In this document: one piece after another, positions 3,101 to 24,584 of the stretch
Position numbering within the stretch: the stretch's first letter is position 1
Layout: the number at the start of each line of letters is the position of its first letter
Source of the DNA: a bacterium
Lineage (GTDB): Bacteria > RBG-13-66-14 > B26-G2 > WVWN01
Reading direction: 5' to 3'
NCBI GenBank assembly: GCA_035529855.1
Contig: DATKVX010000101.1
Location: forward strand, 1-32,629
Length of the DNA stretch: 32,629 nt
Program-made: the position numbers and the translations under genes
Notes under the pieces: generated by a model
Told to the model about the DNA's origin: nothing
The model's database searches: none
Seen by the model: the letters and a program-made list of their open reading frames with translations, nothing else

Positions 3101-4474
3101 TTACTTTCTTTGGTTTTTGAGGGTAGGCGGTAGTTGCTCCGAAAGCGTGCCCATTTGTTTAGCCAATTCCTGAATTCGTTCCCGGAGTTTAAACGTGCAA
3201 TCGGTGATGTGCGCTCTTTCGAGGACGACGTCTTCCGCGAAGGCCCGGCAGGTAGGCGCCCCGCACGAGCCGCAATCGATGCCGGGCAGCGACGCGGAGA
3301 CCGCCTCCAACTTTTTCATCAAAGCGATGGTCTCCGTAATGTCGGTCCCGAGCGTAAGGGTGGGCCGCGGCCCCGGCGTCATTCTGAGGTTGAACTCCCC
3401 GTCCTCGATCAGTCCCGTAATCTCTTGGAACGTCAGGTCCGGCGGCCGGTTCTCCTCGATGCCGAACTTCTCGCTCCGCGTCGCCCGCAACTCGTCGATG
3501 CGGTTTTTGGCCACGAACGGGTCTTCTACCGTAAGCGGCCCGCCGACGCAGCCGCTGGTGCACGCGCGGAGCTCCAGGTAGTCGTAGCCGTGATGGTATT
3601 CGTCGCTCTCGATAAGTTCCAGTACGCGGACGACGTTGGCGATGCCGTCCACCGCCAGGCGGCGGCCTTTGCCGATGAGCGTGTTTTCGCCGCCCGCGGC
3701 CCCCCACCCCAGCGCGAGCCCCGACGCGCGGGCGATGCCCGGGACGACCACCACCTTCTCCAGGTTGCTCATTATGCGGTTGTAGACGTCGGAGATGGCG
3801 ATCGCGCCGTCGAGCGCGGTACGGGGGGTGGCCAGCGGTTGTTTGATGGCGGTGACTTTGGCCGAGCAAGGGGTTATGAAGAAGACGCCTATTTCTTCCG
3901 GCGGTATGCCCAGCTCGCGGCTGCGGCTCGCCTTGACCACCCGCGCCGCCGCGTCCATCGGCGCCTCTATCGGGATAATGTGGTTTAAGAGCGACGGGAA
4001 CCGCACCTGAATCAAGCGTACTACGGCCGGGCACAACGAGGAGATAACGGGCTTTAAGTGTTCTTCATTCTCCAGGAATCTACGGGTGGCCAGCGTGACG
4101 ATTTCGCCCCCCAGCGCGCCCTCGTAGACTTCGTCGAACCCCAAGTATATAAGGCCCGATAGGATTTTGTCCGGCGGTATCGACGTTTTGAATTGGCCGG
4201 CGAAGGCCGACGCCGGTACCGCTACCTTATGCTTGAAACGATGGATGGCTTCGAGCGGGTCCGTCCGGGCGTATTTGGCGTCCGTGGGACAAACCCTTAT
4301 ACACGCGCCGCAATCGATGCAGCGCACCGGATTTATCTCCGCCTTCCCGGAGCGGACCCTGATGGCCTCGGTCGGACACTCCCGCACGCAATGCGTACAG
4401 GCGATGCACCGGTCCTCGGCCAACCGTACCGAGTGGTAATATTCTTTTTCTACCTTTTTCTGCTTTTCGGCCAT
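3101..4474 (-). CDS. Putative sensory [FeFe]-hydrogenase (HydS-like, group C type)
   Basis: The 457-aa protein has two [4Fe-4S] ferredoxin motifs (C23/26/29/33 and C52/55/58/62), then the H-cluster domain. L1 is SSLCP (C148), L2 is TPCSAK (C203) and L3 is ACTSGC (C305, C309). A further Fe-S motif lies near the end (C401, C404, C409, C426). All four H-cluster cysteine ligands are present. The first Cys of canonical L1 (TSCCP), used for proton transfer in catalytic enzymes, is Leu147, and the Met and Glu residues of L2/L3 also differ. These features fit sensory rather than catalytic [FeFe] hydrogenases. Unlike many HydS proteins it ends with no PAS domain. It is the first gene of the cassette and has its own promoter. 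No hydABC or maturation genes are in the window. Confidence 0.87.
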   Translation of the reverse strand: MAEKQKKVEKEYYHSVRLAEDRCIACTHCVRECPTEAIRVRSGKAEINPVRCIDCGACIRVCPTDAKYARTDPLEAIHRFKHKVAVPASAFAGQFKTSIPPDKILSGLIYLGFDEVYEGALGGEIVTLATRRFLENEEHLKPVISSLCPAVVRLIQVRFPSLLNHIIPIEAPMDAAARVVKASRSRELGIPPEEIGVFFITPCSAKVTAIKQPLATPRTALDGAIAISDVYNRIMSNLEKVVVVPGIARASGLALGWGAAGGENTLIGKGRRLAVDGIANVVRVLELIESDEYHHGYDYLELRACTSGCVGGPLTVEDPFVAKNRIDELRATRSEKFGIEENRPPDLTFQEITGLIEDGEFNLRMTPGPRPTLTLGTDITETIALMKKLEAVSASLPGIDCGSCGAPTCRAFAEDVVLERAHITDCTFKLRERIQELAKQMGTLSEQLPPTLKNQRK

Positions 4475-13216: not shown

Positions 13217-13230
13217 CTTACTCTTGTAAG
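13217..13230. repeat. Small palindrome in the pnp leader
   Basis: CTTAC, TCTT, GTAAG form a 5-bp inverted repeat in the 33-bp gap between the mlaD-like gene and pnp. It has the same CTTACT...GTAAG ends as the larger palindrome at 16469-16483. It could be an RNA hairpin in the pnp leader or a chance match; it is short. Confidence 0.35.
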
Positions 13231-13232
13231 GA

Positions 13233-14099
13233 TTAAAAAATCGAAAGGTGGATGTACCGGCCGGGGCGTTCGCGAACGTCCCTTATAAGGCTCTTGGCCT
13301 CGCCGGTCGTCTCCACCAGATCGTTGTAAAATTGGTCGTCTTTGAGGAGCTTGCCGGCCGAGCCCTCGCCTTGCTCCAACCCCTCGGCGACGCCGCGCAG
13401 CGACGTCGCGGTGTAACGCAGGTCCCCCGACATCGCCGACAGGTTATCCAGCGTGACGTCGAAGTTGCCTTCGTTGCGGGCTACCATGCCGTCCAGGCGG
13501 TAACTCATGGCCCGGAGGTTGTCGAGCGTGACGTTGATGTCGTCGCGGCTCTCGTCCAGGATGTAAGCCAGGTCGGAGGACATCACCTCGACGTTGGCGA
13601 CCGTCTCTTTGAACGATTTCACCGTGGGCTCGTCCAGCATTTCGTTTATGGAGCCCAGGCTGTCCTGGACCATCTTGAACATGGCGTCCATACCGATGAC
13701 CTCGGCGCCCTCCACCGTAGCTCCCGGTTTTATTACCTCGGCTTTGGAGGGCCCCGGGTCAATCTCGACGTAGTTGTCGCCCAAAAGGCCTATCATCGTT
13801 ATCTTGAACCGGTCCTTCTCGTGCAGGATGAGGTCCCGCCGGACGAGCACCGTGACCATAACGCGGCGCTTCCCCTTGTAGTCGACGAAATCTATGTTGT
13901 TGACCGAGCCGACTTTCACGCCGCCCATCCGGACCTGGGCCCCCTCGTTGAGGCCCGCGGACGAGTCGAAGATAACGTCGTAGCGATGGCCCCGCTCGAA
14001 CACGCGGATCTCGCCGACGCCGAAGACGAGGATGGACAACAGCACCAGCGCGGCGAAGACCATAATGCCTACTTTTATCTCGTTGGACATCTTATCCAT
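13233..14099 (-). CDS. MlaD-like MCE-domain lipid-transport protein
   Basis: The 288-aa protein has one N-terminal membrane helix (about residues 10-28) and a single MCE domain (about 38-115: YDVIFDSSAGLNEGAQVRMGG, then VKVGSVNNIDF and LLGDNYVEI). A long helical C-terminal tail follows, as in MlaD/TTG2C proteins. It would be the inner-membrane-anchored periplasmic ring of an Mla-type phospholipid transporter. I prefer the ATG at 14099, one base beyond the MlaF TAG (14101-14103), with GGCGGTG upstream. GTG at 14108 and ATG at 14090 are alternatives. No MlaE permease gene is next to it. Confidence 0.9.
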   Translation of the reverse strand: MDKMSNEIKVGIMVFAALVLLSILVFGVGEIRVFERGHRYDVIFDSSAGLNEGAQVRMGGVKVGSVNNIDFVDYKGKRRVMVTVLVRRDLILHEKDRFKITMIGLLGDNYVEIDPGPSKAEVIKPGATVEGAEVIGMDAMFKMVQDSLGSINEMLDEPTVKSFKETVANVEVMSSDLAYILDESRDDINVTLDNLRAMSYRLDGMVARNEGNFDVTLDNLSAMSGDLRYTATSLRGVAEGLEQGEGSAGKLLKDDQFYNDLVETTGEAKSLIRDVRERPGRYIHLSIF

Positions 14100-14100
14100 A

Positions 14101-14886
14101 CTACGCACCGCCTATGACGTCTATGGGCCCTTGCGCACTGCCGTTTATAAATTGCTGCACGTACTCGTCGTGGGACCCCTTTATATCGTCCGGCGCCCCG
14201 AGGGCGATTATCTTGCCGCCGTACATCATGGCTATGCGGTCGGCGATTTTGTACGCGCTCGCCATATCGTGCGTGACGACAATACTCGTTACGTCCAATT
14301 GCTCGTCCATCTTGATTATGAGGTCGTTGATGACGTCCGCCATTATGGGGTCGAGGCCGGTGGTGGGCTCGTCGTACAGCACGACCTTTGGGTCGTGAGC
14401 CAGCGCCCGGGCGAGGCTCACCCGCTTCTTCATCCCGCCGGAGAGTTCCGCCGGCCCCATATTGGAAATATTCTCCAAACCCACCAGCCGGAGCTTCTGT
14501 TCGACCACGTCGGCTATGTCCGCCGGCGAAAGATGCGAGTACTCGTAGAGGAAAAAGCCCACGTTCTCCCCCACCGTCAACGAGTCGAACAGAGCCGCGC
14601 CCTGGAATACCATCCCGAACTTCCGCCGGACGTCGTTGAGCTCGGGCCCTTTCATCTCCGTAATGTCGCGGCCGTCGACCATAATCGTCCCGATATCGGG
14701 TTTCATCAGGCCTATGATATGCTTCAAGAAGACCGACTTCCCGCAGCCGGACCGGCCTATAATGACCATCGTCTCGGCTTCGTGCACCGCCAGGTTGATG
14801 CCGTCCAGGACGAGGTTATCGCCGAACGACTTGTGGACATCGGCGGCCACTATGGCCTCCGGATGGCTTAAAGCGTCGTGGGTCAT
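14101..14886 (-). CDS. MlaF-like ABC transporter ATPase
   Basis: The 261-aa ABC ATPase has Walker A GRSGCGKS (44-51), a Q-loop in VFQGAALFDSLTV, the signature LSGGMKKRVSLARAL, Walker B VVLYDEPTTGLDP and the switch His in VVTHD. The ALFDSLTVGENV segment and the LSGGM signature are typical of MlaF/TTG2A, which powers phospholipid transport with MlaE and MlaD. The ATG overlaps the murE stop (ATGA). The mlaD-like gene follows directly, supporting the assignment. The permease mlaE is missing from the cluster. Confidence 0.92.
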   Translation of the reverse strand: MTHDALSHPEAIVAADVHKSFGDNLVLDGINLAVHEAETMVIIGRSGCGKSVFLKHIIGLMKPDIGTIMVDGRDITEMKGPELNDVRRKFGMVFQGAALFDSLTVGENVGFFLYEYSHLSPADIADVVEQKLRLVGLENISNMGPAELSGGMKKRVSLARALAHDPKVVLYDEPTTGLDPIMADVINDLIIKMDEQLDVTSIVVTHDMASAYKIADRIAMMYGGKIIALGAPDDIKGSHDEYVQQFINGSAQGPIDVIGGA

Positions 14887-16415
14887 GGCGAACGGTTCAC
14901 GCGCGGCTCCGTGCCCGGCGGCGCCGCGGCACTCAGGCCGAGCTCCGACACTACCTCCTCTACGGTTCGACGGTCGCTGTAGGGGACTTCGCTCCCCTTA
15001 ACCTTTTGGACCTCCTCGTGGCCCTTGCCCAGTACGGCGACTATGGTCGCTTCCTCGGTTCGGGCGGACGAGAGGGCGAAGCGGATCGCCTCGGCGCGGT
15101 CCAGGATTACGCGGTAGTCGTCGGGCTCGGCGCCGCCCTCCGCGATTATGCCCGCGGCCACGTCGCGCGCTATGGCCGCCGGCTCCTCGTAGTACGGGTC
15201 GTCGGTGGTGACGACGACGTAGTCCGCGTACCGCCGCGCCAACGCGCCCATCACCGGCCTCTTCTCGACGTCGCGGTCGCCGGTGCAGCCGAAGACGGCG
15301 ACGACGCGGTCGGCGCCCAGGCCGCGAATTTCGGCCAGCGCCTTTTCCATACTATCCGGCGAGTGGGCGTAATCGATTACCACGCGCAGTTTATCGTTTA
15401 CGTCCACCAGCTCCAGGCGCCCCGGGACGGGCGGCGTCCCGGCTATCCCCTTTTGCGCGACGTCGGCGGCCACGCCCAGCTCGCGCGCTAACGCGAAAGC
15501 GGCCGCGCAGTTCAGCACGTCGAAAGACCCGCGCAGTGGCGAGGTTACGGCGACCGTCGCGCCGTCCGGACAACGGAGCGAGAACCGCAGCCCCTGCCAG
15601 CCGGACGACGCGTCGGCGGCGCGATAGTCGCTCGCGGCTTCCGCCGCCCCGTACGTCACCTTGCGCCCCGGCAGCGACGCCGCGAGCTTGCGGCCGTGCG
15701 CGTCGTCGACGTTTACCACCGCCGGCGCCCCCTCCGCCAACTGCTCGAACAACGACGCCTTGGCCGCGAAGTACGAATCCATGTCGCCGTGGAAGTCGAG
15801 GTGGTCGTGGCTGAGGTTGGTGAAGGCCGCCGCGGCGAACGGCGTCCCGGCCACCCGCGACAACGCCAGCGCGTGCGAGGAGACCTCGACCACGGCGACG
15901 CCGCAGCCGGCGTCTGCGGCCTCTCGCAACATCGCCTGCAGCTCCGGCGCCTCGGCCGTGGTAAGGCGGGCGGGCCGCTCCTCGCCGGCGACGACGTTCT
16001 TCACCGTCGACGCCAGGGCCGTCTTGTAACCCGCGGCGCGGAATATCCCGTCCAGCAGGAAGGCGACCGTGGTTTTGCCGTTGGTCCCGGTAACGCCCAC
16101 GACGGCCAGCTCGCGGCCCGGGTGGCGGTAAAAGGTCGCGGCCGCGGCGGCCAGCGCCCGGCGAGCGTCGTCCACGACTACCTGGGGAACGGCGGCCGCG
16201 TCGGCGGATGCCCTCTCGACGACGACGGCCGCGGCACCCCGGCCTAAGGCGTCGGCGAGGAAATCGCGGCCGTCATGCCGCCGCCCCTTAACGGCCACGA
16301 ATAAACTGCCGGGTGTAACCTGCCGGGAGTCGTGAGTGACGGTTGTTATCTCGGGGTCGGCGGCGCCCTTTACCTCCCGGTAAGGGAGCTCTTCCAGTAT
16401 TTCTTTTATTTTCAA
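14883..16415 (-). CDS. murE: UDP-MurNAc-tripeptide synthetase (MurE ligase)
   Basis: The 510-aa Mur ligase adds the third amino acid of the peptidoglycan stem peptide. It has the N-terminal THDSRQVTPGSLFVAVKG, the P-loop GVTGTNGKTT (107-116), LTTAEAPEL, SHDHLDFHG (202-210), a carbamylated-Lys candidate K219, and GKGHEE (463-468). The substrate-specificity loop reads DDPYYEEP (405-412), where meso-DAP enzymes usually have DNPR. The Arg that contacts DAP is therefore Tyr, and the third residue (DAP, Lys, Orn or other) is uncertain. The start is TTG at 16415; an upstream in-frame TAA leaves no better start. It heads the minus-strand run from the divergent region. Confidence 0.95.
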   Translation of the reverse strand: MKIKEILEELPYREVKGAADPEITTVTHDSRQVTPGSLFVAVKGRRHDGRDFLADALGRGAAAVVVERASADAAAVPQVVVDDARRALAAAAATFYRHPGRELAVVGVTGTNGKTTVAFLLDGIFRAAGYKTALASTVKNVVAGEERPARLTTAEAPELQAMLREAADAGCGVAVVEVSSHALALSRVAGTPFAAAAFTNLSHDHLDFHGDMDSYFAAKASLFEQLAEGAPAVVNVDDAHGRKLAASLPGRKVTYGAAEAASDYRAADASSGWQGLRFSLRCPDGATVAVTSPLRGSFDVLNCAAAFALARELGVAADVAQKGIAGTPPVPGRLELVDVNDKLRVVIDYAHSPDSMEKALAEIRGLGADRVVAVFGCTGDRDVEKRPVMGALARRYADYVVVTTDDPYYEEPAAIARDVAAGIIAEGGAEPDDYRVILDRAEAIRFALSSARTEEATIVAVLGKGHEEVQKVKGSEVPYSDRRTVEEVVSELGLSAAAPPGTEPRVNRSP

Positions 16416-16442
16416 AGGTTTATGCGGCCTATAATTTTAGGC

Positions 16443-16471
16443 TTGACTTACAGTAAATATTATGCTATCTT
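16443..16471 (+). promoter_or_regulatory. Candidate promoter for the STAND regulator / glmS run
   Basis: TTGACT (16443-16448) and TATCTT (16466-16471) are 17 nt apart. The spacer contains TTACAGTAA, and the -10 overlaps the start of the 16469-16483 palindrome, so repressor binding there could block it. A second possible -10, a perfect TATAAT at 16557-16562, has no convincing -35. Confidence 0.55.
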
Positions 16472-16483
16472 ACTAATAGTAAG
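16448..16483. promoter_or_regulatory. Two TTAC/GTAA palindromes, candidate operators
   Basis: TTAC-A-GTAA (16448-16456) and CTTACTA-A-TAGTAAG (16469-16483, a perfect 7-bp arm with a 1-nt centre) lie 12 bp apart in the divergent region. They overlap the candidate plus promoter. The XRE helix-turn-helix protein encoded immediately downstream is the obvious candidate ligand. This is inference from position and symmetry only. Confidence 0.5.
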
Positions 16484-16536
16484 AAACGTTTCCCCTCGGT
16501 AAGGTTTGAAGGTCATAAAACAAAGCCTTAGCCCAA

Positions 16537-16565
16537 ATAGTATCACAACCCGACTTTATAATCAA
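16537..16565 (-). promoter_or_regulatory. Candidate promoter for the murE run
   Basis: On the minus strand TTGATT (16560-16565) and TACTAT (16537-16542) are 17 nt apart. Transcription would start near 16530 and cross the palindromes before reaching murE at 16415. Each hexamer matches the consensus at four of six positions. Confidence 0.5.
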
Positions 16566-16608
16566 CCGTTAATTAGTCTCGCCGGTAGACGTTTAGTAGC
16601 ACCTCCAG

Positions 16609-18819
16609 ATGGATGGTAAGAACATAACGTTCGGCAAGGTCCTCCGCGAGAAGCGGATAGGCCGCGGCCTGACCCAAAGGGAGCTCGCGGAGCGGGCCAA
16701 CGTCGACGACTCTTACATATCCCAGCTCGAGCGCGACTACAAGTTCCCCTCCGCCCGCACGATTGAGGGGCTGGCGCGCGGCCTCGGCGTCGAGGTCGCT
16801 GAGCTGCTGACGATGTACTTCCCGCCGGCGGAGGCGAAGGAGCAGGCGGCGTTCGTGGGCCGCGGGGAAGAAGCCGCGGCGTTCGAGCGGGCCCTGGCGG
16901 GGCCCGAGGGCTTGTTGGTGGTCGCGGGCGAGGCCGGCTCCGGGAAGACGGCGCTGGTCAACAAGCGTTTTATCCCCGCGTGCCGGGCCCAACGGGCGCC
17001 CTACATATATTTCGAGAGCCGGCGGATGACGTCGTACCGCGGTTTCTTGAAGGACCTGCGCGACACCTTCGCTTCGCGCAAGGGCGCCTACCGCGCCTTC
17101 GACGAGATATTCGACCAGTGCGAATCGGTGGAGCGGCGGCTGCGGGGCCGGTTCAAAGACCCGTTCAGCGTGCAGGTCACCGGCGGCGTCGCGGAGGCGG
17201 CGCCGGAGGACGACGAGGAACTGACCTACGCCGAGAAGTACATGTACCGCGAGGCCGAAAGGCTCCTGACGGAGGAATTTTTGGCCGGCTGGCGGGCGTC
17301 GTCGCCGAAGGACGCGGCCAAGGCCGTCGTCTTTTTGGACGACTTCCACGACGTCGGCGCGACGGTGGGCTATTGGATATGGCGGTTCGTCGAGCGCCTG
17401 AGCGAGGCCGGCGTCCTGGGGCGGAAGTGGCTTTTCGTCATAACGGCCGCGCCGCCGCGGATGCCGGCGGCGCCGGAGGGCATACGGAACGTTCGGACGC
17501 TCGAGCTGAAGCCGTTCTCGCCCGCCGAAGTGGAGGAATACGTCCACGTCCGCGGCCTGAAGCCGGCCGACGACGAGTGGGCGTTGATATCGTCTCTTCA
17601 AGGCGACGTCCGCTCGTTGAAGTTCTGGGGAGACTACCTGGAGGCCGCGGCGGACTATGCCGAAAACCGCTTGGGGGTGGCGGAGGAAGCGCTGCGGCGG
17701 CTGGACGAGGACCTGTCGCCGTACGTCGCGGAAAACCGCGTGCGGGAGGGCACGCTGCTCCTTATGAAAACGCGCCGCCTCCTGGGTCACCTGACCAGGT
17801 TGCAGGGGCGGCTGGCGGAGGCGGCCGACTATTACGGCTCGGCCGCGGCCCTGGTGGAGAGCTCGGCCGAAAGCCGGCCCGCGGATATGGGTCACCTGTA
17901 CTTGGACCTGGGCCACGTCAGCCGCCACCGCGGCCGGTGGGACGAAGCGGTGGCCTTCTACACCCGCGCCTGCGACGAATTCGCCGCCGCGGCCGAGGCC
18001 ATAGGCGAGGGCATAGCGCACTCCAGCCTGGGCACGGCCTTCCGACTCAAACGTAAATACTCGCGCGCCAAGCAGGAGTACCGCCAGGCGGCGACGATAC
18101 TGGGCGGCCTGAAAGGCCGGGCCGACGCGGCCCCGGAGGCGCGCCGCTGGCTGGCGAGCACGCTGTCCAACAACGCGATAGCGCTCCGCCTCGAGGCGGA
18201 GGAGTTGATGCGTTCGGGCGAGGAGGCCGCGGCCTGGAAGGCGCTCGAGCGCGCCAAGGCCACGTGCCGGGAAGCCGTAACGGTCAGCGACGACGCCGCG
18301 GAGACCGCGGTGGCCGAAAACCGATTCGCGCTGTGCCTGTATACCGAGAGTCGTTGGCTGCGCGACGCCGGCGCCGCGGCCGAGGCGACGGGACTCCTGG
18401 CGGAGGCGACCCGGCGGCACAGGCGGGCGCTGGCCGTCTTCGAGGACCTGGGCGACCGATATCGGGTGGGGCAGGTCCTGGCGGACCTGGGCGTCGCCGC
18501 CGCGGAACAGGGCCTGGTCCACGACGCGATCATAAATTTGAAAAACAGCGTCGCGATATTCCAGCAGATGGACGGCCGGTACCACCGGGCGAAGGTCCTG
18601 GTGGAGCTGGGTCTGTTGTCCGAAGGCGGCGAGCAGCTGTCCTATTTCGCCGAGGCGCTGGCGGCGGCCCGCGACCACAACGACGAGTCGCTGGCCGAAA
18701 TGGCCGCGGCGGTGAAAGGGGCGCTCGCGGCCGGCGACAGCCGGCGCGCTCGGCAATTCATCGACGAGCAAACCGCGGCCGACGCTAAGCTCGGACGTTT
18801 ACTCGGGGAAGCGGGTTAG
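16609..18819 (+). CDS. XRE-type HTH / STAND NTPase / TPR signal-transduction regulator
   Basis: The 736-aa protein combines an N-terminal XRE helix-turn-helix (about 8-65: LTQRELAERANVDDSYISQL) with an AAA/STAND NTPase module. The module has FVGRGEE (82-88), Walker A GEAGSGKT (107-114) and Walker B VVFLDDFHD (240-248). About 390 residues of TPR-like helices follow, from about 345 (for example RPADMGHLYLDLGHVSRHRG, DEAVAFYTRA and KYSRAKQEYRQAATI). STAND proteins use the repeat region to sense a ligand and the NTPase as a switch; here the output would be DNA binding. The ATG has no Shine-Dalgarno (CACCTCC, its complement, precedes it). It is divergent from murE and 36 bp upstream of glmS, suggesting control of both. 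The sensed signal is unknown. Confidence 0.88.
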   Translation: MDGKNITFGKVLREKRIGRGLTQRELAERANVDDSYISQLERDYKFPSARTIEGLARGLGVEVAELLTMYFPPAEAKEQAAFVGRGEEAAAFERALAGPEGLLVVAGEAGSGKTALVNKRFIPACRAQRAPYIYFESRRMTSYRGFLKDLRDTFASRKGAYRAFDEIFDQCESVERRLRGRFKDPFSVQVTGGVAEAAPEDDEELTYAEKYMYREAERLLTEEFLAGWRASSPKDAAKAVVFLDDFHDVGATVGYWIWRFVERLSEAGVLGRKWLFVITAAPPRMPAAPEGIRNVRTLELKPFSPAEVEEYVHVRGLKPADDEWALISSLQGDVRSLKFWGDYLEAAADYAENRLGVAEEALRRLDEDLSPYVAENRVREGTLLLMKTRRLLGHLTRLQGRLAEAADYYGSAAALVESSAESRPADMGHLYLDLGHVSRHRGRWDEAVAFYTRACDEFAAAAEAIGEGIAHSSLGTAFRLKRKYSRAKQEYRQAATILGGLKGRADAAPEARRWLASTLSNNAIALRLEAEELMRSGEEAAAWKALERAKATCREAVTVSDDAAETAVAENRFALCLYTESRWLRDAGAAAEATGLLAEATRRHRRALAVFEDLGDRYRVGQVLADLGVAAAEQGLVHDAIINLKNSVAIFQQMDGRYHRAKVLVELGLLSEGGEQLSYFAEALAAARDHNDESLAEMAAAVKGALAAGDSRRARQFIDEQTAADAKLGRLLGEAG

Positions 18820-18855
18820 GGGCGCATCCCCCGTTAAAGAGAGAGCGAGGAAGGT

Positions 18856-20691
18856 ATGTGCGGTATAGTGGGATACGTGGGTAAGCGAGCGGCGGCGGCG
18901 ATACTGGTCGACCGCCTCGACGACCTCTCCTACCGCGGTTACGACTCGGCGGGCATAGCGGTCGCGAACGACGGCGTGGTCGTCGTCGAGAAGTTGCCGG
19001 GTAAAATAGAAAACTTGAGGAAGGCGCTGGCCGGCAACGAGCCCCCCGGCACCATCGGCGTCGGGCACACGCGCTGGGCCACCCACGGCGCGCCCACCCA
19101 GGTAAATGCCCACCCCCACGCCGATTGCACCGGCAAGCTGTTCGTCGTCCAGAACGGCATAATCGAGAACTTCCCGGCGCTGAAGCGGGAGCTTCTGGCG
19201 CGGGGGCACGAGTTCCGCTCGGAGACCGACACCGAGGTCGTCATCCATTTACTGGAGGAGTACTACGACGGCGACCTGATGGCCGCGGCCAAGCAGACCG
19301 CGGCCCGGCTCGAGGGCTCGTTCGCGCTGGTATTCCTGGCGGCGGACGAACGCCGGCTGGTCGCGGTCCGCTACCACGCGCCGCTCATCGTCGGCGTGGG
19401 CGGCGGCGAGAACGTCGTGGCCTCCGACATCACCGCCGTCCTCCAGGATACCAACAAGGTCTACGTGTTGGAGAACGGCGACGTGGTGTCGGTGGAGGCC
19501 CACCGCATCGACGTCGACACCTTCCTGCCCGAGCGCGCCAAAGTGCCGACCGAGCGCCATCTCACCATCGTCGACTGGCGCGCCGAGGACGTATCCAAGA
19601 ACGATTACCCGCACTATATGTTGAAGGAAATATACGAGCAGCCGCGCGCGGTGGAACGGACGCTGCAGGGCCGCATCAAGGACGGCGAAATCGTCCTGCG
19701 CGAGATGGACCTCTCGCCCGAGCACATCCGGCGCTTCGACTCCTTCCACATCGTCGCCTGCGGCACCGCGTACCACGCCGCCCTCTTCGGCAAGTACCTG
19801 CTGGAGCGCGTGCTGCGCGTCCCGGTATCCGCCGACATCGCCTCCGAGTTCCGCTATCGCGACCCCATCCTGGGGCCGAAGTCGCTCGTGATACTGATAA
19901 GCCAGTCGGGCGAGACCGCGGACACCATCGGGTCGATGGAGGAGGCACAAAGCCGCGGTGCGAAGACGCTGGCCGTCGTCAACGTGCGGGGGAGCACGCT
20001 GGCCCGCGAGGCCGACGCCGTGATATATACCCGCGCCGGCCCGGAAATAGCCGTCGCCTCCACCAAGGCCTTTACGGCCCAGCTCACGGCGCTGATTCTG
20101 CTGGCGTGCTACGTCGCCGACCAGCGCAAGGTGGAGTGGCCGTACTGCCGCGAGGAGCTCTTGCGCCACTTGCTCGAGCTCCCCGCCCACCTCGAGCGGA
20201 CGCTGGAGGTCGCGGCCCCCACCGCCAAGGCGTGGGGCGAGCTCATCGCCGGCGAACGCGACTGCTACTTCCTGGGGCGCAAGGTCGACGAGCCGCTGGC
20301 GCGCGAGGCCGCGCTCAAGCTCAAGGAGATATCGTACGTCCACGCCGAAGCGTACGCTGCGGGGGAACTGAAGCACGGCACTATCGCGCTCATAACGGAG
20401 GGGACGCCGGTCGTATCTTTCATGACGCAAGAGGACGTGTGGGACAAGATGATATCGAACATCCACGAGGTCCGGGCGCGCGGCGCGCGCACGTTCGCCG
20501 TGGCGCGCGAGGGCGGCTACGGCCTGGAGGACTTGGTGGACGACGTGATTACGCTGCCGGCGGTACCGGAGCTGTTCGCGCCGGTGCTGGCGGCCATCCC
20601 GGCGCAACTCATCGCGTACGAGGCCGCCGCGGCGCTCGGCCGCGACGTGGACCAGCCGCGCAACCTCGCCAAGAGCGTTACGGTGGAATGA
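18856..20691 (+). CDS. glmS: Glutamine-fructose-6-phosphate aminotransferase
   Basis: The 611-aa enzyme makes glucosamine-6-phosphate, the first step to UDP-GlcNAc. The N-terminal Ntn glutaminase domain begins with the catalytic Cys2 (MCGIVGYVG) and contains YRGYDSAG and HTRWATHG. The C-terminal half has two SIS isomerase domains (CGTAYHAALFGKYLLE, LISQSGETADTIG). It ends in the conserved DQPRNLAKSVTVE. Length is standard. A GAGGAAGG site precedes the ATG. The 36-bp gap from the upstream gene has no room for a glmS ribozyme. GlmR follows after 22 bp. Confidence 0.98.
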   Translation: MCGIVGYVGKRAAAAILVDRLDDLSYRGYDSAGIAVANDGVVVVEKLPGKIENLRKALAGNEPPGTIGVGHTRWATHGAPTQVNAHPHADCTGKLFVVQNGIIENFPALKRELLARGHEFRSETDTEVVIHLLEEYYDGDLMAAAKQTAARLEGSFALVFLAADERRLVAVRYHAPLIVGVGGGENVVASDITAVLQDTNKVYVLENGDVVSVEAHRIDVDTFLPERAKVPTERHLTIVDWRAEDVSKNDYPHYMLKEIYEQPRAVERTLQGRIKDGEIVLREMDLSPEHIRRFDSFHIVACGTAYHAALFGKYLLERVLRVPVSADIASEFRYRDPILGPKSLVILISQSGETADTIGSMEEAQSRGAKTLAVVNVRGSTLAREADAVIYTRAGPEIAVASTKAFTAQLTALILLACYVADQRKVEWPYCREELLRHLLELPAHLERTLEVAAPTAKAWGELIAGERDCYFLGRKVDEPLAREAALKLKEISYVHAEAYAAGELKHGTIALITEGTPVVSFMTQEDVWDKMISNIHEVRARGARTFAVAREGGYGLEDLVDDVITLPAVPELFAPVLAAIPAQLIAYEAAAALGRDVDQPRNLAKSVTVE

Positions 20692-20713: not shown

Positions 20714-21853
20714 ATGGCGCTTTCTCTGAATAAATTGCGGCTCGTGGCCGTCGGCGGCGGCACGGGCCTCGCCACGCTGCTGCGAGGCATCAAAGGCTAC
20801 GTCCGCAGACACGACGAAGACGAGGAGGCGCCGCTCGACCTCTCAAGCCTCACGGCCATCGTCACCGTCTCCGACGACGCCGGCGCCGCCGGCAAGTTGA
20901 TAGACGAGTTCGGCATCCTTCCGCCGGGCGACATCCGCGCCTGCCTGGCGGCCCTCGCCGACGAGGAGGAGCTGCTGTCGAAGCTGTTCCTGCACCGCTT
21001 CGTGGGGGGCGGCCCCTTCGGCGGCCAGGCCTTCGGCAACCTCTTCCTCACCGCGCTCGTCCAGATGAACGAGGGCGATTACCTGAACGCCATCAAGGAT
21101 GCGAGCCGCGTCCTCCGCGCGGACGGGACCATCCTGCCGGCCACGCTGGAGCACGTGCGGTTGTGCGCCGAAATCGAGGGAGGCCGGGTCCTCGTGGGCG
21201 AGGACGAGCTGAACCGCAACGGCGGCCGCATAAACCGCGTCTACCTCGCCCGCCGCGAAAACGGCGACGGCGACGGCCCGCCCGAAGAGATAGCTTGCGA
21301 GCCCATGCCCGGCGCGGTCGAGGCCATACTCGACGCGGACGTGGTTATCCTGGGGCCGGGCGGCCTGTACACCTCCATCATCCCCAACCTGCTCGTCGGC
21401 GGCATATCGGACGCCATCAAGCAGGCCAACTGCCGGACGATATACATCGCCAACGTCATGACGCAGCGCGGGAAGACGGACCGCTACTCCCTCTCCGACC
21501 ACATCCGCGAGATAAAGAAGTACGGCGGCTTCCCCGTCGACTACGTGCTGGTCAACGACCGCCAGGTATCGCCGGCGGTGCTCGCGACGTACGCGCAGGA
21601 GGGCGCGACGCAGATACTGTTCGACCCGGACGAGTCGGACGAAGTGTCGGCGGTGTCCTTCGGCGGCGGCCGCGAGCTGTTGGTGGTCGAGGGGAGCATC
21701 ATCCACACCGCCGACGTCATCGCCGAAGTCGAGGAGCAATCCATCCGCCAGGAGGACGGCGCCGGCGACGTCGAGACCAAGACGGTCCTGCGCCACGATC
21801 CGGCCAAGCTGACGGCGGCGTTGATAGAAGTCTTGAAGGCCACGCAGAGTTAG
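20714..21853 (+). CDS. glmR: GlmR/YvcK-type gluconeogenesis factor, UDP-GlcNAc-responsive
   Basis: The 379-aa product belongs to the YvcK/CofD-like family. It has the N-terminal VAVGGGTGLATLLRGIK (11-27), VSDDAGAAGKL, ILPPGDIRACL, GQAFGNLFLTAL, LGPGGLYTSIIPNLL and TQRGKTDRYSLSDHI. In B. subtilis and Listeria, GlmR (YvcK) binds UDP-GlcNAc and stimulates GlmS. Placement directly after glmS (22 bp) strongly supports that role here. It lacks the context of CofD, the F420 enzyme of the same fold. RBS-like GGTGAAGGT precedes the ATG. Confidence 0.92.
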   Translation: MALSLNKLRLVAVGGGTGLATLLRGIKGYVRRHDEDEEAPLDLSSLTAIVTVSDDAGAAGKLIDEFGILPPGDIRACLAALADEEELLSKLFLHRFVGGGPFGGQAFGNLFLTALVQMNEGDYLNAIKDASRVLRADGTILPATLEHVRLCAEIEGGRVLVGEDELNRNGGRINRVYLARRENGDGDGPPEEIACEPMPGAVEAILDADVVILGPGGLYTSIIPNLLVGGISDAIKQANCRTIYIANVMTQRGKTDRYSLSDHIREIKKYGGFPVDYVLVNDRQVSPAVLATYAQEGATQILFDPDESDEVSAVSFGGGRELLVVEGSIIHTADVIAEVEEQSIRQEDGAGDVETKTVLRHDPAKLTAALIEVLKATQS

Positions 21854-21874: not shown

Positions 21875-22570
21875 ATGAGCGAGGAGCTGAAGCCTGCGGC
21901 GCTATTCGACCTGGACGCTACGGCCTACGGGGAGTTCCTCGCCGCGCTGGAGTGGCCGTGGGACGCGTTGAAGGGAATCGGCGCGCTGGCGCGCGAGCTC
22001 TTGCGCGGCGTTCGCGAGGGCGAGATTATGCCCGGCGCGTACGTCCTGGGCGACGACGTGGATATAGGGCCCGGCACGGTGGTGGAGCCGGGCGCCGTCA
22101 TCAGAGGCCCCACGGTTATCGGCGCCGACTGCGAAATTCGCGCGGGCGCGTACATCCGCGGCAACGCCGTCGTCGCGGACCGCTGCGTCGTCGGCAACTC
22201 CACCGAGCTCAAGAACGCGCTCATGCTCGAGGGCGCCCACGCGCCCCACTTCAACTACGTCGGCGACAGCGTTCTGGGCCTGCGCGCCAACCTGGGCGCC
22301 GGCGTCAAGCTCTCCAACTGGAAGGTGGCCGCGAACAAGAAGGTAAAGATTGCCGTGGGCGGGAAGCTTATCGATACCGGCCTCGACAAGTTCGGCGCCA
22401 TCCTCGGCGACGACGTCGAGATAGGCTGCAACTCGGTGACGAACCCCGGGACCGTCGTCGGGCCGCGCACCATCATATACGCCAACTGCAACGTGCGTGG
22501 TTTCGTCCCCGCCGATTCGGTGTTAAAATTACGCCAGCAACAGGACGTCGTGGCTCGGCGGCGCGTGTAG
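21875..22570 (+). CDS. Left-handed beta-helix acetyltransferase, GlmU C-terminal-like
   Basis: The 231-aa protein consists mostly of hexapeptide repeats (about 55-205). The active-site segment GNSTELKNALMLEG followed by PHFNYVGDS aligns with GlmU's acetyltransferase site: H125 and Y128 match its catalytic His and Tyr. The C-terminal EIGCNSVTNPGTVVGPRTII pattern is typical of stand-alone sugar-phosphate acetyltransferases. The uridylyltransferase domain of GlmU is absent, so that activity must be encoded elsewhere. Position between glmR and a phosphohexomutase supports glucosamine-1-phosphate N-acetylation. It begins 21 bp after glmR. Confidence 0.85.
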   Translation: MSEELKPAALFDLDATAYGEFLAALEWPWDALKGIGALARELLRGVREGEIMPGAYVLGDDVDIGPGTVVEPGAVIRGPTVIGADCEIRAGAYIRGNAVVADRCVVGNSTELKNALMLEGAHAPHFNYVGDSVLGLRANLGAGVKLSNWKVAANKKVKIAVGGKLIDTGLDKFGAILGDDVEIGCNSVTNPGTVVGPRTIIYANCNVRGFVPADSVLKLRQQQDVVARRRV

Positions 22571-22628: not shown

Positions 22629-24584
22629 GTGGACAGAATCCAGGGGACCGACGGCATCCGGCGCGACGTCCGGCCTCAGGGCGACCCCACGCTCGCCGGC
22701 CTCTCGCCATACGAGGCGTTCGTCGAGCGTGGCGTGATCACGGACGCTTTCATGGAGGGGTACGCCTACGCCTTCGCGCGGCTCCGCCTCGACGAGTCCC
22801 CCGCTTCGGCCGAGGTCGTCGTCGGCTGGGACCCGCGCGACCCCGCGGGCCTTTTCACCGGCGCCGTCGTGCGGGGCCTGCGGAAGGCGGGCGCGACGGC
22901 GGCCGTGATGGGCATAACGCCCACGCCGGCGGTGCCGATGTATATGGCCTATCGCGGCGCCGCCGCGGGCCTGATGGTAACCGCCTCCCACAACCCGGCG
23001 GGCCAGAACGGCGTTAAAATATTCCTCGCGCCGGCGGGTCTAAAACTATTGCCGGCCGACGACCGCCGCTTGACGGCGGCGGTAGCGGCGCTGAACTGGA
23101 AGGAGGTAGCCGCGGCCGAGCCGCGCGGCGGCGAGGTGGACGTCTCGAGCGAGTGGCGCGAGGTATTCGCGGGATTTCACCTCGCGGAGTGCAACTCCTG
23201 GCTCAGGGCCGGCGAAAGGCCGCTGGCGGACTTCGTTCTGGTGGTCGACCCGGCGCGGGGGTCGTATTCGGGCACGGCGGCGGATATCCTGCGCGCCTAC
23301 GGCGCCGACGTCGTCGAGGTCAACGCCGACGAGGGCGACGGCCTCGTGAACCGGCGCTCGGGCGTCGCGGACCTGGAAGGCGTGGCGTTGATATCGTTCG
23401 GCGACGTCTCGCCCGGCGGCCGGTTCGCCGAATACCCGGCGCTAACGGCGCTGGACAAACTTGCGGGCGAGTACGACGTCGCGCTCGCGACCGGCGAAAC
23501 GCTCCTGGCCGGCGTCATCTTCGACGCCGACGGCGACCGCCTCTTCCTCGTCGTATACGACCCTACCGCCGGCGAATTCGTCGTGTTGAGCGGCGACGAG
23601 GTCGCGATATTACAAGCGGCGGAGCTGGCCCGGCGCCGCGGCGGCGCCGGCGGCCGGGCCTTCATAAACACCGTGGAGAGCGACCTGGCGGTGGCGGGCG
23701 CCGCGGCCTCGCTCGGTTTCGACGACGTCCTGAAACCCGTCGGCGACAAGTGGATATTGACCGAGGCGTGGCGGCTGGCTTCGGGGGCCGCGGAGGTCGG
23801 CGAAGGCGCGTCTTCGTTCTCGGCGGCGCTCGAGCCGCTGTTGGCGGGGGGCGGCGATTCGCCGCTCGCCCGGGAAATCCCGTACGGCGTAGGCTGCGAG
23901 GAGACCGGCCACGCCATAACCTTCGGCGAGCTCGTGCGCGGCGACGGCGCCGTCGTGCCGTTCGCCGCCGGCGATGGCCTGAAGTCGGCGTTGAACACGC
24001 TCGCCGCAATAGCGACGCTGCGGAAAAAACTCGGCCCGGGCGAATTATACGGCCGGCTGCGGGCGCCGTTCGAGCGCGGTTACAAGGGCAACAACTACGT
24101 CTTCTTCACGCACAAGGGGCAGCTCCTTCGGGGCGGCGCGGCGTACGAGTTTATGGACGAAGAGATAAAGGCCGCGCTGAAGAAGCACGCGCCGGCGCTC
24201 GCGCTGGAACGGCTCGATTTCCCCGAGGAGCCGGATTTATTATACCGGGCCGGCTACGACGGCGGCCGGCAAGCGTTGGGCGTCTTCTGCCGCAACTCCG
24301 GCACCGAGGACAAGAGCGCGCTGTACGTACGGGCGGCCGGGCCGTGGGCGGAGGCCGCGTCGACGCTGGAGGCCGAGCTTTACCCCAAGTTCTACGCCGC
24401 GGTCAAAGACGTAAGCGACCCGCGCAGCGTAGCGGAGCTCGCCTGGTTGGCGGGGGGGCCGCGGCCGGACGACGAGGCGTTGCGTTGGGTTGCGGAAGGG
24501 CTCGAGCGCGTTGTCGGCCCCGCGGGCCCCACGCCTCGCGGCGAAGCGGTTCTGGCCGGGTTGCGCCGGGCGAAAAAGTTGTGA
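22629..24584 (+). CDS. Phosphohexomutase, probable phosphoglucosamine mutase, enlarged
   Basis: The alpha-D-phosphohexomutase motifs are all present. GTDGIRRDV is at the N-terminus, the phosphoserine loop is TASHNP (118-123, S120), the metal site is DADGDR (299-304), the sugar-binding motif is GCEETGH, and the phosphate site is NSGTEDKS near the C-terminus. By operon logic it should interconvert glucosamine-6-P and glucosamine-1-P (GlmM step). However, it is 651 aa, against about 450 for GlmM, with extra sequence in the middle and an extended C-terminus. Glucose- or mannose-phosphate specificity is also possible. The start is GTG with GAGGG upstream. Confidence 0.85.
   Translation: MDRIQGTDGIRRDVRPQGDPTLAGLSPYEAFVERGVITDAFMEGYAYAFARLRLDESPASAEVVVGWDPRDPAGLFTGAVVRGLRKAGATAAVMGITPTPAVPMYMAYRGAAAGLMVTASHNPAGQNGVKIFLAPAGLKLLPADDRRLTAAVAALNWKEVAAAEPRGGEVDVSSEWREVFAGFHLAECNSWLRAGERPLADFVLVVDPARGSYSGTAADILRAYGADVVEVNADEGDGLVNRRSGVADLEGVALISFGDVSPGGRFAEYPALTALDKLAGEYDVALATGETLLAGVIFDADGDRLFLVVYDPTAGEFVVLSGDEVAILQAAELARRRGGAGGRAFINTVESDLAVAGAAASLGFDDVLKPVGDKWILTEAWRLASGAAEVGEGASSFSAALEPLLAGGGDSPLAREIPYGVGCEETGHAITFGELVRGDGAVVPFAAGDGLKSALNTLAAIATLRKKLGPGELYGRLRAPFERGYKGNNYVFFTHKGQLLRGGAAYEFMDEEIKAALKKHAPALALERLDFPEEPDLLYRAGYDGGRQALGVFCRNSGTEDKSALYVRAAGPWAEAASTLEAELYPKFYAAVKDVSDPRSVAELAWLAGGPRPDDEALRWVAEGLERVVGPAGPTPRGEAVLAGLRRAKKL

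Follow-up and report, generated by a model that had tools for sequence, protein, structure and literature searches.

The open reading frame at 16609 to 18819 (forward strand) of the window, the 32,629-nucleotide stretch of DNA analysed here, encodes a 736-residue protein that is probably a local autogenous repressor of a hexosamine operon, acting through two palindromes that overlap its own promoter. The gene, which initiates with an ATG codon, is real, conserved and restricted to one lineage, an order of Candidatus Coatesbacteria. Its dN/dS ratios relative to the three congeneric orthologues (0.13-0.25) show that it is under purifying selection. The genomes compared comprise the four of the window's genus (G000, the window's own genome of 2.62 Mb, and G001 to G003), one from the other family of the same order (G004) and nine more from the phylum.

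The three-part layout claimed in a preliminary description of this locus was borne out by a Pfam domain search and an AlphaFold2 model, complemented by Foldseek comparisons: an XRE helix-turn-helix (HTH; residues 8-67) is followed by a P-loop NTPase (approximately 82-351) and a TPR solenoid (355-734) of about 380 residues. All Pfam matches exceed their cut-offs: HTH_3 at 12-66 (5e-13; 49.3 bits against a cut-off of 23), AAA_16 at 82-248 (1.7e-8; 35.6 bits against 32.6) and TPR_12 at 428-497 (5e-9). The Walker A (GEAGSGKT, 107-114) and Walker B (VVFLDDFHD, 240-248) motifs are present in the open reading frame at the residues originally assigned to them. In the model, which was computed from five sequences (mean pLDDT 77; 82 for the NTPase alone), the five helices of the HTH_3 fold at 8-67 precede an alpha/beta NTPase at 86-300, a helical part extending to about 351 and the TPR helices. 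Columns invariant across the orthologues are most frequent in the HTH (57%, compared to 32% in the NBD and 39% in the TPR portion), as expected if an operator is kept. A block between the two Walker motifs, ELTYAEKYMYREAERLLTEE (residues 204-223), is as conserved across the order as the DNA-recognition helix and may constitute a contact or signalling surface.

The initial classification of the NTPase as STAND-type stood in part. The STAND NOD is defined as NBD-HD-WHD (PMC6468293). The regulator has the P-loop NTPase with both Walker motifs and a repeat-type C-terminal sensor, the latter evident from the TPR_12 match, the TPR helices and the resemblance to LGN/Pins TPR domains. No winged-helix domain is seen between HD and sensor in the five-sequence model, where the chain runs from a helix at 334-351 directly into helical hairpins (355-374 and 381-398) with no beta-wing. 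Nor is the Walker A lysine invariant: the motif reads GITGSGRT in the G004 orthologue, with arginine in place of lysine, and that family may thus hydrolyse ATP weakly or not at all. The helices at 305-351 come after the NBD in the model, and the place of the GxP motif is taken by LGGHPLSVALW in G004 and by LQGDVRSLKFW, without the proline, in the window. As far as the model goes, the protein appears to fall short of strict STAND membership at the WHD while having the layout of a STAND-TPR regulator. The top full-length Foldseek match is 6mfv (PH0952, a STAND protein with a TPR sensor; E 1e-7), with a low TM score presumably because the domain orientation differs, followed by LGN/Pins TPR domains. 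When the NTPase alone was searched against the PDB, RuvBL, CED-4 and Cdc6/Orc1 matched about equally, and Avs4 and RdrA weakly. Like PH0952, MalT and AfsR, the last of which consists of a DNA-binding domain, NOD and TPR (PMC10936776), the regulator combines an N-terminal DNA-binding effector, a P-loop NTPase and a C-terminal TPR sensor. It differs from this group in its DNA-binding domain (XRE instead of ArsR-like, LuxR or SARP), in the winged-helix domain not seen in the model, in the variable Walker A lysine and in its inferred target, which would be cell-wall precursor supply as opposed to maltose use or antibiotics for MalT and AfsR.

ORF and Pfam coordinates agree with the placement first reported, 36 bp before glmS and divergent from murE. 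The glmS gene (18856-20691, forward strand) encodes glutamine amidotransferase and SIS domains (Pfam); the Mur ligase gene murE (14883-16415, reverse strand; Pfam Mur_ligase_M/C), a possible second target, is separated from the regulator gene by 193 bp. Downstream from glmS on the forward strand lie yvcK/glmR, of the UDP-GlcNAc-binding YvcK family (20714-21853; NCBIfam TIGR01826, 278.6 bits with a cut-off of 196), a gene for a GlmU-like left-handed beta-helix acetyltransferase (21875-22570; positions 214-393 of the 393 of profile TIGR03992, below cut-off) and one for a GlmM-like phosphohexomutase of 651 residues (22629-24584; PGM_PMM I-III, with a partial match to the glmM profile TIGR01455, below cut-off). 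This gene content, together with the fixed linkage to glmS and murE, supports the view that the regulator heads an operon for the UDP-GlcNAc pathway. The acetyltransferase corresponds to archaeal-type GlmU in the C-terminal half alone and is devoid of the nucleotidyltransferase half. Control of glmS by a ribozyme or riboswitch was considered and rejected: Rfam detects neither a glmS ribozyme nor any other element at the locus, its sole match in the window being a tRNA (894-966).

Alignment of the intergenic region between murE and the regulator gene in the five genomes revealed two blocks rich in invariant columns, 16442-16484 (24 of 43) and 16536-16574 (15 of 39), compared to 6 of 111 columns elsewhere (Fisher p = 9e-8 for the first block against all other columns, the blocks having been picked after viewing the alignment). 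The first block includes a sigma70-type promoter for the regulator-glmS operon (16443-16471, forward strand), TTGACT-17-TATCTT, in which TG precedes the second hexamer. With 9 of 12 consensus matches and an extended -10, this is the only promoter-like site detected by a scan of positions 16000-19100; the scan also finds it in all four other loci, the G004 version being TTGACT-17-TAACAT. There being one promoter in this interval, and no promoter- or terminator-like site detected in the 36-bp gap between the regulator gene and glmS, glmS probably depends on read-through. The second block likely corresponds to the murE promoter. The candidate sequence (16537-16565, reverse strand), TTGATT-17-TACTAT with an extended TG, matches the consensus at 8 of 12 positions in the window, below the threshold of the scan, and has a counterpart in G004, TTGCCT-17-TATAAT, with 10 of 12. 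The two predicted promoters face each other, so that a transcript overlap of about 50 nt is predicted and a polymerase leaving the murE promoter would have to cross the palindromes.

The palindromes, TTGACTtacAGTAAA and CTTACTaatAGTAAG, are 15 bp long and have their centres 26 bp apart (16450 and 16476). Palindrome 1 (16443-16457; TTGACT-TAC-AGTAAA) lies over the -35 box; it is conserved, occurring as the perfect TTGACTTATAGTCAA in G004, with the qualification that its left arm doubles as the -35 hexamer, which by itself would keep that arm conserved. Palindrome 2 (16469-16483; CTTACT-AAT-AGTAAG) lies over the -10 box and the probable start site. It is conserved in G000, G001 and G003, is found as CTTACTGGTAGTCAA in G002 and is reduced to a half-site in G004, where the left arm is lost. 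A consensus combining the two, YTKACTNNNAGTMAR (YTKACT-N3-AGTMAR), is matched exactly at two places in the entire G000 genome, both at the locus. Since this locus supplied the consensus, finding it here involves some circularity; finding it nowhere else does not. Likewise, G001 and G003 have two matches each, both at the locus, and G004 a single match, at the locus, whereas one of the two matches in G002 is at the locus and the other precedes a DUF4388 gene. When one mismatch is allowed, the count in G000 is at background level (11, versus 10 in a reversed control). Taken alone, the inverted repeats are not significant relative to shuffled sequences, one-mismatch palindromes being present in 57-87% of the shuffles of these AT-rich stretches. 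Since palindromes of such length are common by chance, the case for these two rests on their conservation and uniqueness. Judging from the sequence, the stretch 16443-16490, initially put forward as the target for DNA binding, coincides with the conserved promoter and with two putative operators unique to the locus. Our first guesses at an operator, TTACNGTAA and CTTACN4-6GTAAG, were discarded as too loose, with many matches genome-wide. The off-locus site in G002 (L086, 3194-3208) is itself located at a promoter-like sequence, TTGACT-17-TATACT, before the DUF4388 gene. Another short palindrome, CTTACtcttGTAAG (13217-13230), lies within the 33 bp that separate the mlaD-like gene of the window from the PNP gene; its spacing is unlike that of the operator pair.

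The occurrence of operator-like sites over the -35 and -10/start regions of its own promoter, ahead of the first gene of an operon, makes autorepression the most likely mode of action of the regulator. From the domains, the synteny, the conserved promoter and the conserved, genome-unique palindromes, we infer the following course of events. The XRE domain would bind as a dimer to both palindromes, covering the -35 and the -10/start region, and the bound regulator would repress a single transcript encompassing its own gene, glmS and, in the genus, also yvcK and the genes for the GlmU-like acetyltransferase and the GlmM-like mutase. The TPR half would take up a signal, ligand or protein, for which UDP-GlcNAc or another wall precursor, YvcK and GlmS itself are candidates (the sensing of cell-wall precursor or envelope status, as first proposed, being a conjecture), while ATP would change the conformation or the oligomeric state of the ATPase so that DNA binding is released or tightened. 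Given the facing orientation of the murE and operon promoters, and the need for the murE polymerase to cross the palindromes, the bound regulator may also hold back murE. A more far-reaching version, in which the XRE-ATPase-TPR protein integrates a wall or amino-sugar signal with the ATP state and, from the two operators between the facing promoters, sets the expression of both the UDP-GlcNAc supply operon (glmS-glmR-acetyltransferase-glmM) and murE, reciprocally or jointly, and would thereby do with a protein what the glmS ribozyme and GlmY/GlmZ circuits do, is conceivable and must be considered doubtful. It is rather unlikely that the protein activates the operon, and perhaps murE, through an ATP- and inducer-driven assembly. 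The factors of known mechanism that join a DNA-binding domain to an NTPase and TPRs, MalT and AfsR, do act in this manner (PMC6468293, PMC10936776), and the best full-length fold match in the PDB, 6mfv, is a STAND-TPR protein; however, the palindromes lie over the -35 and -10/start regions, a position typical of repressor sites, and not upstream of the -35, and a promoter with 9 of 12 consensus matches and an extended -10 may not need an activator.

Full-length, single-copy orthologues of the regulator are found in G001 (90% identity), G003 (79%), G002 (67%) and G004 (44%). The protein is thus present in five of the five genomes of the order and in none of the nine other genomes of the phylum. 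A scan of the genome contigs recovered the same four relatives, and a search of 386 genomes with a profile of the NTPase gave full matches only in the order and P-loop fragments elsewhere. The divergent arrangement of murE with regulator-glmS is maintained at all five loci. The connection with glmS and murE suspected in the preliminary description is therefore fixed in every genome that carries the regulator; homologues scattered away from these genes, which would have spoken against it, were looked for and the five found occupy one and the same locus. In the nine other phylum genomes, glmS and murE are near neither each other nor any orthologue. In sister families of the same class (G005 and G006), glmS is alone elsewhere and yvcK-acetyltransferase(-glmM) forms a separate cluster, indicating that the joint placement of glmS and the regulator is peculiar to this order. 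The right flank is not directly readable in G004 and G002 due to 100-N joins in the MAG pseudo-chromosomes, which, and not gene loss, account for the apparent truncation of glmS in the former and of yvcK in the latter. The missing half of the G002 yvcK gene continues on another piece, where it is followed by the acetyltransferase gene and glmM; the end of G004's yvcK was found elsewhere, with no acetyltransferase gene or glmM after it. It would appear that the regulator and glmS precede yvcK throughout the order and that, within the genus if not beyond it, the genes for the acetyltransferase and the GlmM-like mutase come after them as well.

All five genomes belong to one lineage, and vertical synteny accounts for part of the linkage. 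Conceivably it could account for all of it, if a lineage-specific regulator of itself alone, or of something else, had kept its position through slow change in gene order; the neighbouring PNP-mlaD-mlaF-murE segment is also conserved in G004. We hold this to be improbable, as regulator-glmS is retained in G004 in spite of rearrangements further left (where TPR genes lie beside an M16 peptidase gene), as glmS and yvcK-acetyltransferase-(glmM) stand apart in the sister families and as the 36-bp gap contains no promoter. The mlaF-mlaD pair is found beyond murE in all five loci; in the window (13233-16415), murE is followed by genes for an MlaF-like ATPase and an MlaD/MCE-like lipid transport protein, a peptidoglycan/lipid-transport association fixed in the order. 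Naming in the databases is inconsistent, two MAGs of the genus being called Zixiibacteriota and two related loci of the order Coatesbacteria. An anti-phage role, as an NLR-like protein (effector, Orc1-like AAA+/STAND ATPase, TPR sensor) with an incidental HTH, can be dismissed as extremely improbable, for although the NLR-like defence protein LypB has an Orc1-like AAA+ domain and TPR-like repeats (PMC13236601) and the matches to the NTPase model include CED-4 and, at a weak level, Avs4 and RdrA, the gene occupies a single fixed locus in a housekeeping context in all five genomes of the order, no toxic effector, or effector of any kind other than the HTH, is found in the protein, its occurrence is not variable, and PADLOC and PHROGs returned no defence family, their matches being confined to the HTH, generic TPRs and, weakly, the P-loop.

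Autorepression from paired sites has precedents. The best-scoring solved XRE relatives of the regulator's HTH include C.AhdI (3.5e-8) and C.Esp1396I. XRE controller proteins bind paired inverted repeats (C-boxes, in which GTC is recognised) in their own promoters and repress them (PMC4041747); C.Kpn2I additionally serves as a roadblock to elongation at a divergently arranged locus (PMC6237814). C.AhdI and C.Esp1396I are small, consist of one domain, are associated with genes for methyltransferases and nucleases and, unlike the regulator, have neither NTPase nor TPRs. By analogy, the paired use of operators may reasonably be modelled on restriction-modification controller proteins, and a divergent roadblock on C.Kpn2I. 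A likeness in operon layout is seen with the YvcL-controlled operon yvcJ-glmR-yvcL, which combines GlmR with its own DNA-binding autoregulator and is tied to UDP-GlcNAc and wall stress. In Enterococcus faecalis the regulator is the third gene of this operon, which lacks glmS (PMC10986989); here the regulator is first and glmS next.

Several unrelated ways of controlling glmS are known, namely the glmS ribozyme, the GlmY/GlmZ-RapZ small RNAs and the stimulation of GlmS by GlmR. The latter operates in Bacillus subtilis unless UDP-GlcNAc is high (PMC7525490). At the present locus glmR/yvcK directly follows glmS, and a dedicated regulator would act on the promoter. The literature searched, mostly papers accessible without subscription, yielded no glmS regulator built in this way. 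What is new is a conserved sigma70-type promoter overlapped by two genome-unique palindromes, with a predicted function and a narrow distribution. Should the repressor model be correct, an NTPase-TPR repressor dedicated to the glmS step would add another solution to those above, in a phylum that has hardly been studied at the functional level. It would also mean that an NTPase-TPR switch, seemingly without the classical STAND winged-helix latch, serves housekeeping wall metabolism as opposed to sugar uptake, antibiotics or immunity. The 15-bp palindromes make the repressor idea directly testable in vitro. Elsewhere in the window, the reverse-strand gene at 3101-4474 encodes a protein with an Fe-only hydrogenase large-subunit C-terminal domain and several 4Fe-4S domains.
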